This document shows positions 20,548 through 36,279 of a DNA stretch of 64,000 nt, piece after piece. The notes beneath the pieces were generated by a model. That model saw only the letters and a list, made by a program, of their open reading frames with translations, ran no database searches and had not been told where the DNA came from. A program made the position numbers and the translations under genes. Origin of the DNA: Clostridia bacterium. Lineage in GTDB: Bacteria; Bacillota; DTU086. The stretch spans positions 62,001 through 126,000 of the forward strand of contig JAAYIF010000032.1 of the NCBI GenBank assembly GCA_012523575.1. Reading direction: 5' to 3'. Within the stretch, counting starts at the first letter, position 1, and each line of letters begins with the position of its first letter.

Positions 20548-20554
20548 TGTTCTT

Positions 20555-21205
20555 AACTGCTGCGGGTGGCGCAGTATTCTAGTCAGGCTTGCCACTCTGA
20601 AGACGGGCCTAAAAATCCGTCAAAGGGCACATCGATGAAGTTCCTGGTGATGGCTTCTGACGCCCAGTTGGGGGTCGTTGCTGGGAGTTAAGGGGATGGG
20701 GCGATCTACAAAGGCATGTAGGCGTTGACCCTATCCCCGCGGAGACCCAAGTGCGTGGTTTTCCTGTAAAAGGAAAGCTATGGCTTGGGTTTAAACCTGC
20801 ATTCGGTGTGGGGAGCGCTGGGTGCAGTGTAGCCTGCCTTGAGTGGCGGTGGCGGAGACGTCAAAAACGCAGCTTAATGAAAGGGGCCCTATCATTAAGC
20901 TGCGTTGTTGAAACCATCGCTGCAAAAGAGGCTAGGAGTGGAACAAGTCTGTTGAAGAAAATTCCTAGACTGTTTACCGGAGGGTAAGGCCTGCTGGGGA
21001 TTAAAGTGTGTGCTAAGTGGTAATCCAGTCCTGCAGTTTGCGAAACTGCAGATCGGCCCTTAAAGGGAAACCGCTGGTTCGGCGACGGCCAGTGGGCCGA
21101 TGGGAAATCCTACTGGACCTAAGCCGCAAAGTTTACCCAGCCGGGCTGCCACCCGCGGGACGGCAGCATTAAAGTGTAAGACGAGGGTTTTCCCTCGTCT
21201 TTACT
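20555..21205 (+). ncRNA. ole: OLE RNA (ornate large extremophilic RNA)
   Basis: A gene-free stretch of about 650 nt lies between ispA and a membrane-protein gene, which in turn precedes dxs. This is the known genomic setting of OLE RNA. The stretch is rich in paired elements; for example an AACGCAGCTTAATGA arm near 20863 pairs perfectly with TCATTAAGCTGCGTT ending near 20907. It ends with a highly ordered GC-rich region (ACCCAGCCGGGCTGCCACCC, 21134-21153). A promoter lies just upstream and a terminator hairpin at its end. OLE RNA binds OapA and gathers at the membrane; in Bacillus halodurans it is tied to alcohol, cold and magnesium stress. Length, context, promoter and structure all agree; exact ends are estimates. 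Confidence 0.9.
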
Positions 21206-28543: not shown

Positions 28544-28607
28544 CGAAAATATGTCTCAGCATTAAGATGTGCGAAAACAATTTATTATATGTGGGAGTGA
28601 GAAAGTA

Positions 28608-30014
28608 TTGGACGCGGCACAAAGAAATGGGATTATCCGTACCATTTTTTTCGCAGTGATCCTATCATTTTTCTTAATGTTTACTATTCATGCTGTTCTT
28701 GAAATCCCTACACAGCATAGAATCGCAGTGGGACAGGAACTTCGCATCCCTTTAAACTATCCTAAGGAGCTTTTAGACAGCATCAAGGTTCACATTAATT
28801 CCCAAAATGCAAATGTTATCAAATACAAAGGGATAAATACTAAAAATATTGCCTTTAATCCCAATGATAGCTGGCCTGTGGCGGCAAATCCCGGAACCGT
28901 AAAACTTCAGGTTAAACTTTTTGGATTAATTCCTCTAAAAAATATGATTGTGGATGTCCTTCCCCAATACGAAGTTATTCCCGGAGGACAATCCATAGGA
29001 GTAATTCTTAAATCCCATGGTATTATTGTTGTTGGATATTCTTCTATTAAGGTTTCGGGAGAATCCCTGGTACCTGCAAAAAGTGCCGGCATCAGGGTGG
29101 GAGATGTAATCTTATCCATTAACGGTAGAAAAGCAGATTCCGAGGAAGCGGTGGCAGAGATAGTTGACAGTGCCGGCAGGGAGAGGAAAAATGTAGTCAT
29201 GAGGGTAAAAAGGGGAAAACATGTAATGAATTTAAATGTAAAGCCTGTATACTGCAGTGAAACCGGAAGGTATAGAATTGGACTATACGTTAGGGATAAT
29301 GCAGCGGGCGTGGGCACCCTCACTTTTTATGAGCCTAAAAGTAATATTTTTGGAGCCCTTGGACATGCTGTAAGCAGCGGAAACAGCGATCAAGAAGTGG
29401 CTTTTAAAAGCGGAAAAATTATTGAAGCAACAGTTCAGGGTATTCATCAGGGTAAAAGGGGACAGCCCGGTGAAAAAATCGGAATATTTTTAAACGATGG
29501 GAGAGTTAAAGGTAATATAATAAACAATTCTAAATACGGAATTTTTGGCAAGATGACTCAATTTTCTGATGAAAATTCCTTTTACCGAAAGCCCATACCC
29601 GTTGCTTTTTCAGGTCAAATTAAGGAAGGGCCTGCCAAAATGCTTACGGTGGTTCAAGGAGATAATGTGGAAGCCTTTGATATTAAAATTTTGAAGGTTA
29701 TGCCCAACCAGCACAACAGCGGTAGGGGCCTTGTTATAAAGGTTACGGACAAAAAACTTATTAATCTTACCGGTGGAATAATTCAAGGAATGAGCGGAAG
29801 TCCCATTATACAGAACGGGCGATTGGTAGGTGCCGTAACCCATGTATTTATCAACGATCCCACCCAGGGGTACGGGGTAATGGCAGAATGGATGCTCCTT
29901 GAATCCGGCATTCTTGATGGTGAAGAAATATCCAGGAAAGTCGGTGTCGAATTTCCTGGATATTTTTCTTTTTTTATCGATTTTTCCAAAAATTTTTGTT
30001 ATTTTTGCCTTTAG
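28608..30014 (+). CDS. spoIVB: SpoIVB peptidase
   Basis: SpoIVB is the forespore-secreted serine protease that starts pro-sigma-K activation by cleaving SpoIVFA. An N-terminal membrane anchor (IIRTIFFAVILSFFLMFTIH), a PDZ domain (KSAGIRVGDVILSINGRKA), the catalytic His in GALGHAV and the nucleophile in GMSGSP are visible. TTG at 28608 follows GGGAGTGAG; GTG at 28569 is a longer option. The last 25 or so codons run through a terminator hairpin and encode an atypical hydrophobic tail, so the family-like end lies near ILDGEEISRK. Confidence 0.92.
   Translation: MDAAQRNGIIRTIFFAVILSFFLMFTIHAVLEIPTQHRIAVGQELRIPLNYPKELLDSIKVHINSQNANVIKYKGINTKNIAFNPNDSWPVAANPGTVKLQVKLFGLIPLKNMIVDVLPQYEVIPGGQSIGVILKSHGIIVVGYSSIKVSGESLVPAKSAGIRVGDVILSINGRKADSEEAVAEIVDSAGRERKNVVMRVKRGKHVMNLNVKPVYCSETGRYRIGLYVRDNAAGVGTLTFYEPKSNIFGALGHAVSSGNSDQEVAFKSGKIIEATVQGIHQGKRGQPGEKIGIFLNDGRVKGNIINNSKYGIFGKMTQFSDENSFYRKPIPVAFSGQIKEGPAKMLTVVQGDNVEAFDIKILKVMPNQHNSGRGLVIKVTDKKLINLTGGIIQGMSGSPIIQNGRLVGAVTHVFINDPTQGYGVMAEWMLLESGILDGEEISRKVGVEFPGYFSFFIDFSKNFCYFCL
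29925..29972 (+). terminator. Terminator inside the 3' end of spoIVB
   Basis: GAAATATCCAGGAAA (29925-29939) pairs with TTTCCTGGATATTTT (29952-29966), followed by a T-rich run. The hairpin lies before the spoIVB stop codon (30012-30014), and its loop contains a perfect 0A box. Confidence 0.8.
29945..29951 (+). promoter_or_regulatory. Spo0A box, distal (TGTCGAA)
   Basis: This is an exact match to the 0A-box consensus TGTCGAA, about 140 bp before the spo0A start, in the loop of the spoIVB terminator. Paired with a second copy at 30034, it suggests Spo0A autoregulation. Confidence 0.6.
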
Positions 30015-30033
30015 AAGGATAGCAGGCTCCATA

Positions 30034-30040
30034 TGTCGAA
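30034..30040 (+). promoter_or_regulatory. Spo0A box, proximal (TGTCGAA)
   Basis: A second exact TGTCGAA lies 53 bp upstream of spo0A. The sequence from AAGGATA (about 30016) to CGAACT (30037-30042) also loosely resembles a sigma-H promoter, which is how spo0A is sporulation-induced in Bacillus. The box itself is seen; the promoter call is tentative. Confidence 0.65.
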
Positions 30041-30092
30041 CTGAACCAAAACCGAATATAAACAAAAATATGGAAAAGGGGAGGAGGATTTA

Positions 30093-30869
30093 ATGAAAGG
30101 TATAAAAATTGCCGTTGTGGATGATAATAAAGAATTTTGCGAAATTCTGGAAGAATATTTAACAAAACAGGAAGATTTTGAGCTGGTTGGAAAGGCATAT
30201 AACGGAAACGAAGCCATAGTTTTGATAAAGGAAAAAGAGCCCGATGTTGTTATTCTTGATATTATAATGCCCCATTTGGATGGAATTGGAGTGCTGGAAA
30301 GCTTAAACTGCATTGAGCTTGAAAAAAGACCGAAGATCGTTGTCCTTACAACTTTGGGGCAAGAGACCATGACCCAGAGAACCATCGAACTGGGTGCTGA
30401 CTATTATATTCTCAAACCCTTTGATCTGGAAGTTTTAGGAACCAGAATCAGGCAGCTGATAGAGGGTGCCAGCGGGAAAAAGCAGAGCAACGGTATTTCC
30501 CCGAGATCCTCAAAAAATAACATGGAAGTGGAGGTTACCAATATCATTCATCAAATGGGTGTACCTGCACATATAAAAGGCTATCAATATTTAAGGGATG
30601 CAATTCTTCTGGTTATTGATGAAGTTAACCTTTTGGGAGCGGTTACTAAGGAACTGTATCCAATGATTGCTGAAAAATATAATACTACGTCCAGTAGAGT
30701 GGAGCGGGCGATCCGTCATGCCATTGAACTGGCATGGGATCGGGGGAATGTTGATTTGATGAATAAGTTTTTTGGTTATACAATTAATGTGGAACGGGGT
30801 AAGCCCACAAATAGTGAGTTCATAGCCATGATTGCCGATAAGCTTAGAATGAAAGCAAAAGCCGGATAA
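30093..30869 (+). CDS. spo0A: Sporulation master regulator Spo0A
   Basis: The receiver domain ([18 protein letters not shown], phosphoacceptor Asp56 in [13 protein letters not shown]) is joined by a short linker to the Spo0A DNA-binding domain with the characteristic [21 protein letters not shown] helix. Length is 258 residues, as in other clostridia. It controls entry into sporulation. The spoIVB-spo0A linkage is conserved. AAGGGGAGGAGG precedes the ATG, and two 0A boxes and a terminator frame the gene. Confidence 0.97.
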
Positions 30870-36067: not shown

Positions 36068-36279
36068 GGTATATGCTGCAGTTTTCTCACTCCGGAACTC
36101 ACCCCGGACATCTCTATGCAAAGCTTAAGGGTAAAACCGGACCGCCCCAAATTCGGCATCCGTGCCTCAGTTGGGGCTGGCGCCGACATCCTATCGGCGC
36201 CTTCCGGTTTTGCCCTACGCTTTGCCAAGAACTATTAGCCGGCGTTCGTTAAGTCGTTTCGCAAACTGCAGCAGATACC
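36068..36279 (+). repeat. Dispersed structured repeat, copy B (complete)
   Basis: The ends form a 17-bp inverted repeat with one mismatch (GGTATATGCTGCAGTTT, 36068-36084, against 36263-36279). A middle stem pairs AAAACCGGA (36133-36141) with TCCGGTTTT (36203-36211). A copy-specific apical hairpin pairs GGCGCCGA (36179-36186) with TCGGCGCC (36194-36201). It fills most of the 380-bp gap between the unknown gene and spoIIM, followed by a terminator. Confidence 0.9.

Follow-up and report, generated by a model that had tools for sequence, protein, structure and literature searches.

Four neighbouring genes, recN, spoIVB, spo0A and steA, were recognized by family match in the window, by which we mean the whole 64-kb stretch of DNA analyzed. 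The spoIVB open frame occupies positions 28569 to 30014 of the + strand, with the first GTG taken mechanically as its start and a TAG at 30012–30014 as its stop. Its product matched the SpoIVB domain (TIGR02860, E = 3e-135) over residues 23–448 of 481, and the conserved part finishes near position 29912. On the same strand, spo0A follows at 30093–30869 (TIGR02875, E = 1.3e-125), preceded by the Shine-Dalgarno-like sequence GGGGAGGAGG at 30078–30087 (+). The DNA-binding domain of Spo0A is close to the solved Spo0A domains 1lq1 and 1fc3, and shares with them an identical stretch of 12 residues that we take to include the recognition helix. SpoIVB, the product of a core gene of sporulation, serves as the forespore's signal for the late programme of the mother cell, and spoIVB of B. 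subtilis is transcribed late, in the forespore. Two structured RNAs lie elsewhere in the window: a full-length OLE RNA (Ornate Large Extremophilic RNA; 20550–21168, + strand, 537.6 bits) and a TwoAYGGAY RNA motif (36095–36251, – strand, 61.1 bits).

A terminator hairpin was found at 29928–29963 (+), in which the arms ATATCCAGGAAA and TTTCCTGGATAT form 12 perfect base pairs, with no mismatch, around a 12-nt loop (29940–29951). It is followed at 29964–29975 (+) by a T tract of 11 T and one C. When the RNA from 29915 to 29990 was folded, the z-score was –4.8, and none of 200 shuffled sequences folded as well. The original prediction placed this hairpin after the end of spoIVB. This was incorrect: the frame remains open through the hairpin and the T tract, and the first in-frame stop, the TAG at 30012–30014 (+), begins 49 nt past the last stem base. 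Non-stop genes of the brfA/arfA kind are arranged in this way, with a strong intrinsic terminator that precedes the first in-frame stop.

We assembled spoIVB–spo0A junctions from other genomes by searching for SpoIVB in relatives, where 57 of 61 genomes gave a match, and in a sample of the phylum, where 218 of 259 genomes did so at 1e-30, with junctions taken from the better-scoring places. After the duplicates L001 and L032–L036 were taken out, there were 132 loci, namely 30 from relatives, 100 further phylum junctions and two named loci. Both genes were present at 127 of these, since L017, L030, L043, L079 and L134 had no spo0A match and were dropped, and removal of L038 (a duplicate of L072) left 126 junctions, a sample that leans toward the SpoIVB proteins most like that of the window. 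One locus, L037, was assigned to its family (f71) by sequence likeness. At L005, from the congener Clostridia bacterium 41_269 (G001), the spoIVB match was split between query residues 5–307 and 279–477 in different frames, which we attribute to a frameshift or an assembly error.

We then located the spoIVB stop relative to the terminator, using one terminator finder throughout and calling scores of 22 or more strong. A terminator was detected in 73 of the 126 junctions, and in 40 of them the spoIVB stop came after it; in the remaining 53 none was detected. For the 61 junctions with strong terminators, the stop lay after the hairpin in 34, within it in 15 and before it in 12, and shuffled junctions gave only 0.25 'after' cases on average and at most 2. 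The same finder applied to other genes (125 strong terminators on 41 contigs, 864 kb) placed the stop before the hairpin in 105 cases, within it in 14 and after it in 6. The proportions with a late stop (34/61 and 6/125) differed with P = 1e-14 in Fisher's exact test, where the stretch searched ran from the domain end to the spo0A start for spoIVB, and for other genes began 150 nt ahead of the stop and finished 160 nt beyond it. Because 40 long regions had been chosen partly for a late-stop spoIVB, they served only for the other-gene counts, and the spoIVB rate was taken from the 126 junctions. The contrast became smaller when weak hairpins were included, with 160 stops before, 29 within and 45 after for other genes (45/234), compared with 40/73 for spoIVB.

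The six strong late-stop cases among other genes look like background hairpins of coding DNA, where 48 strong hairpins occurred in 561,016 bases of coding interior, or about one per 11.7 kb. At the ends of spo0A itself, in the same loci, 20 stops came before the terminator, 3 within it and none after it. For spoIVB, 'after' was the largest class at every threshold from 18 to 26, and at 28 the counts were 12 after, 12 within and 2 before. Counted by family, 16 of the 33 with a strong terminator had at least one genome whose stop lay at least 12 nt past the hairpin. The spoIVB hairpins that lie in frame equal the usual terminators at gene ends, both in energy and in T content. We rejected the idea that compactness of the junction alone explains the late stop: median junction lengths were 205.5 nt (n = 40) with the stop after and 224.5 nt (n = 18) with the stop before the hairpin (P = 0.38), and only 4 of 73 strong terminators of other genes with a neighbour within 250 nt were followed by the stop.

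The position of the stop beyond the hairpin appears, on the whole, to be unselected, because, measured from the hairpin, the median distance to the next stop was 28.5 nt when read in frame, and 27 nt when read in either of the other two frames (n = 40 for each). At four loci (L022, L066, L130 and L129, from G020, G150, G168 and G170, respectively) there was no stop at all before spo0A, and spoIVB and spo0A formed one uninterrupted frame of 755, 753, 735 and 864 codons, respectively. An intervening terminator was detected in the first three of these genomes; none was detected in G170. In genus g16, a TAA occurs at a fixed place past the hairpin in all six genomes examined, and the T tract is gone in three of them while the hairpin stays; the stop there may therefore be used.

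Since the terminator lies inside the spoIVB frame, a message that ended there would probably carry no stop codon. We infer that the terminated spoIVB transcript is such a non-stop message, in which case its ribosomes would have to be rescued, whether by tmRNA-SmpB or by some other factor. A tmRNA was found in 16 of the 18 genomes searched and SmpB in 18 of 20; neither was found in the assemblies of the window's own genome (G000) and of G003, both of which are drafts. In the one-contig genome G168, the SmpB match was in two pieces (G168:C1:2776539-2776965). To our knowledge, non-stop messages from an intragenic terminator are known only for ribosome rescue factors. The spoIVB gene resembles brfA of B. 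subtilis and arfA of E. coli in that an intrinsic terminator inside the frame would leave the message without a stop; for brfA, this arrangement is described in the available part of the report (PMC6881298). However, brfA and arfA encode ribosome rescue factors and their non-stop transcripts have been demonstrated, whereas SpoIVB is a sporulation peptidase and its non-stop transcript is deduced from sequence. A rescue factor of the ArfA/BrfA type can be dismissed for the spoIVB product, which is the SpoIVB peptidase. Among the matches listed in the open-licence literature, judged by title and the start of the abstract, none treated the 3΄ end of spoIVB. We tentatively raise the possibility that spoIVB is a naturally stop-less developmental gene, whose product might be made through ribosome rescue that would set its amount or timing. 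This reading covers about half of the sampled families with a strong spoIVB terminator.

An alternative is that the late stop is an ordinary one, the hairpin being weak or non-functional as a terminator so that most transcripts pass the stop. The fixed TAA of genus g16 favours this explanation, as do three genomes of family f14 that keep the hairpin and have lost the T tract. However, it accords poorly with hairpins that match gene-end terminators in energy and T content, with stops whose positions look unselected overall, and with the four loci where no stop precedes spo0A (a terminator was detected at three of these); we consider it unlikely. It could also be supposed that a ribosome crossing the hairpin prevents its folding, so that polymerase enters spo0A when spoIVB is well translated. 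The hairpin does lie inside a translated frame, and the available part of a study of E. coli reports almost complete repression of a terminator located several base pairs past a gene (PMC4824070). On the other hand, the stems of other genes in these genomes often lie near the stop or overlap with it (lower quartile 8.5 nt, median 25 nt, n = 119), which suggests that their terminators tolerate ribosomes, and in B. subtilis RNA polymerase outruns the ribosomes, as stated in the accessible portion of another report (PMC13323073). Such translation-coupled antitermination seems rather improbable to us.

The heptamer TGTCGAA, the 0A box, occurs at 29945–29951 and at 30034–30040, exactly as predicted, with both copies on the + strand and 89 bp apart. 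There is no third occurrence on either strand of the window. Because 3.3 occurrences would be expected by chance in a sequence of this length, the bare presence of the heptamer is not significant; what is notable is that two copies share a strand and a 96-bp stretch immediately ahead of spo0A. The distal copy does lie in the terminator loop, of which it forms the final 7 nt. The proximal copy overlaps a sigma-H-like –10 element (GAAC, 30038–30041), and a sigma-H-like –35 element, AAGGAT (30015–30020, +), begins directly after the spoIVB stop; both calls follow the sigma-H promoter consensus as generally known. On this basis, the spo0A promoter would be read by sigma-H. An AAGGAT-like –35 element (0–1 mismatch) was present at this place in 33 of 49 families, compared with 9 of 49 in a control stretch, a count that is favoured by our ranking of candidate boxes by a G-rich tetramer upstream.

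The arrangement agrees with that of the B. subtilis spo0A gene (promoters Pv and Ps, boxes 0A1–0A4), where one 0A box overlaps the Ps –10 element recognized by sigma-H and the other three are located between Pv and Ps, as given in the available part of PMC12090719. In the window, one box likewise lies over the sigma-H-like –10 and another is present further upstream. However, one upstream box is seen here instead of three, it lies in a terminator loop, and a simple consensus scan found no sigma-70-like site on the + strand from 29192 to 30756 that would correspond to the sigma-A promoter Pv upstream of the boxes. The C. difficile spo0A promoter carries a consensus 0A box at –75 of spo0A and was bound with high affinity by the Spo0A DNA-binding domain, with several shifted species; the part of that report available (PMC3485338) describes no box in a terminator loop, as found at this junction. 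We found no paper in the open-licence literature that treated the 0A box, the terminator, spo0A and spoIVB together.

A proximal box (0–1 mismatch, 15–130 nt before spo0A) that overlaps a sigma-H-like –10 was present in 110 of the 126 junctions; before duplicate removal, the count was 111 of 127, including 53 TGTCGAA and 47 CGTCGAA. A second exact TGTCGAA on the + strand, 60–115 bp upstream of the proximal box, was found at 18 of these 110 loci, representing 8 of 49 families, compared with a mean of 0.23 and a maximum of 3 in 100 shuffles, where the range of 60–115 bp had been chosen after the spacing histogram was seen. The spacing was exactly 89 bp in families f1, f34, f5 and f52, and 97–99 bp in f14; in f12 the second box stands in reverse orientation, at a spacing of 98. 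Among variants of the heptamer at the distal place, mild enrichment was seen for CGTCGAA (3 loci in 1 family, 0.10 expected), TG[ACG]CGAA (6 loci in 5 families, 1.12 expected) and TGTCGA[TCG] (3 loci in 2 families, 0.65 expected). GGTCGAA/AGTCGAA (0 loci, 0.55 expected) and TGTTGAA/TGTAGAA/TGTGGAA (2 loci, 2.04 expected) were not enriched there, and the reversed control heptamer occurred at 0 of 110 loci. The spacings (69, 79, 89, 97–99 and 111) were best fitted by a helical period of 10.9–11.2 (P = 0.005–0.009), which is only a lead, as the test used 10 and 12 family values merged by hand. Family f23 (L085, L126 and L136) carries three 0A boxes, of which one directly follows the spoIVB T tract, one is inverted and sits just upstream of the –35-like element, and one lies over the –10.

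The original prediction expected both boxes to be conserved in close relatives. The proximal box recurs at most junctions, but the distal one is exact in only one of four genomes of the window's own family, so that for the distal box the outcome named in advance as refuting was in part observed. In the loop, G000 has TGTCGAA, whereas G001 and G003 have TGTCGAT; in G002 the sequence is TGTCGGT, with no hairpin detected. The distal copy might accordingly be a chance match, as the 3.3 copies expected per window and the three relatives lacking an exact box would allow; however, it recurs at a restricted spacing in 8 of 49 families, and the bases G2, C4 and G5, listed as 0A-box contacts in the available part of PMC3485338, are retained in the TGTCGAT of G001 and G003. 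We regard chance as a very unlikely explanation. In family f14, the terminator loop contains TGTCGAA in four of the nine genomes (G016, G125, G221 and G174); three others have CGTCGAA between the hairpin arms with no T tract (G097, G198 and G242), and two have no box there. The loop box of this family is read in different frames (VE in G016 and LSN in G174), which suggests that the DNA sequence is maintained and not the peptide that it encodes, and led us to reject protein-coding constraint as its cause in f14. At L045, L048 and L051 (G097, G198 and G242), where the hairpin and CGTCGAA are kept, the T tract is replaced by ACATATAATGG, with a TATAAT-like –10.

At one locus of f1 and four of f14, the distal box lies inside the hairpin; at two of the three loci of f34 and all three of f23, it adjoins the terminator on its 3΄ side, close after the T tract. 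It was proposed in the original prediction that Spo0A bound in the loop would link autoregulation to readthrough from spoIVB, with Spo0A~P on this box blocking RNA polymerase or altering termination. In addition to these placements, the roadblock by 0A boxes considered for Pv of spo0A and for abrB in B. subtilis, in the part of PMC12090719 available, speaks for the proposal. However, given the hairpin of each locus, a box placed at random 60–115 bp upstream of the proximal one would fall in the hairpin with a probability of 0.46–0.68 in f1 and f14. The loop placement is thus predicted by geometry, both elements having to fit one short stretch, and no special link to termination is needed. Moreover, no terminator was detected in f71, the terminator is far from the box in f12, the box lies 39 nt beyond the terminator in f52 (L101), and, apart from G000, no genome of the window's family has an exact box in the loop. 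The two-box part of the prediction is supported, with the proximal box at most junctions and the pair in 8 of 49 families, whereas the binding–readthrough link, proposed on the basis of the overlap, is in our view highly doubtful.

We consider it fairly probable that this is a compact junction autoregulated by Spo0A, in which the spoIVB transcript would end before its stop codon and the loop overlap would reflect a shared stretch. Three signals would thus operate within about 110 bp. Transcription of spo0A would start from a sigma-H-type promoter whose –10 overlaps one 0A box, with the second box 89 bp upstream. To judge from sequence and position, Spo0A~P probably occupies both boxes to tune transcription of spo0A, in the manner of B. 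subtilis Ps, and autoregulation through two boxes appears to be the simplest reading. The intrinsic terminator would keep late forespore transcription of spoIVB out of spo0A, and the distal box in its loop would merely share a short stretch, so that binding and termination would not require each other. Messages of spoIVB that stop at the terminator would end without a stop codon and would be rescued by tmRNA-SmpB or another factor. While the boxes, the hairpin, the T tract, the missing stop and their recurrence are read directly from the genomes, the binding, the termination in vivo, the non-stop message and its rescue are what these features lead us to expect.

The recurring spacing of 89–99 bp between two Spo0A boxes offers a simple model for spo0A autoregulation outside Bacillus. 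If spoIVB is indeed stop-less across many families, ribosome rescue would gain a built-in role in spore development.
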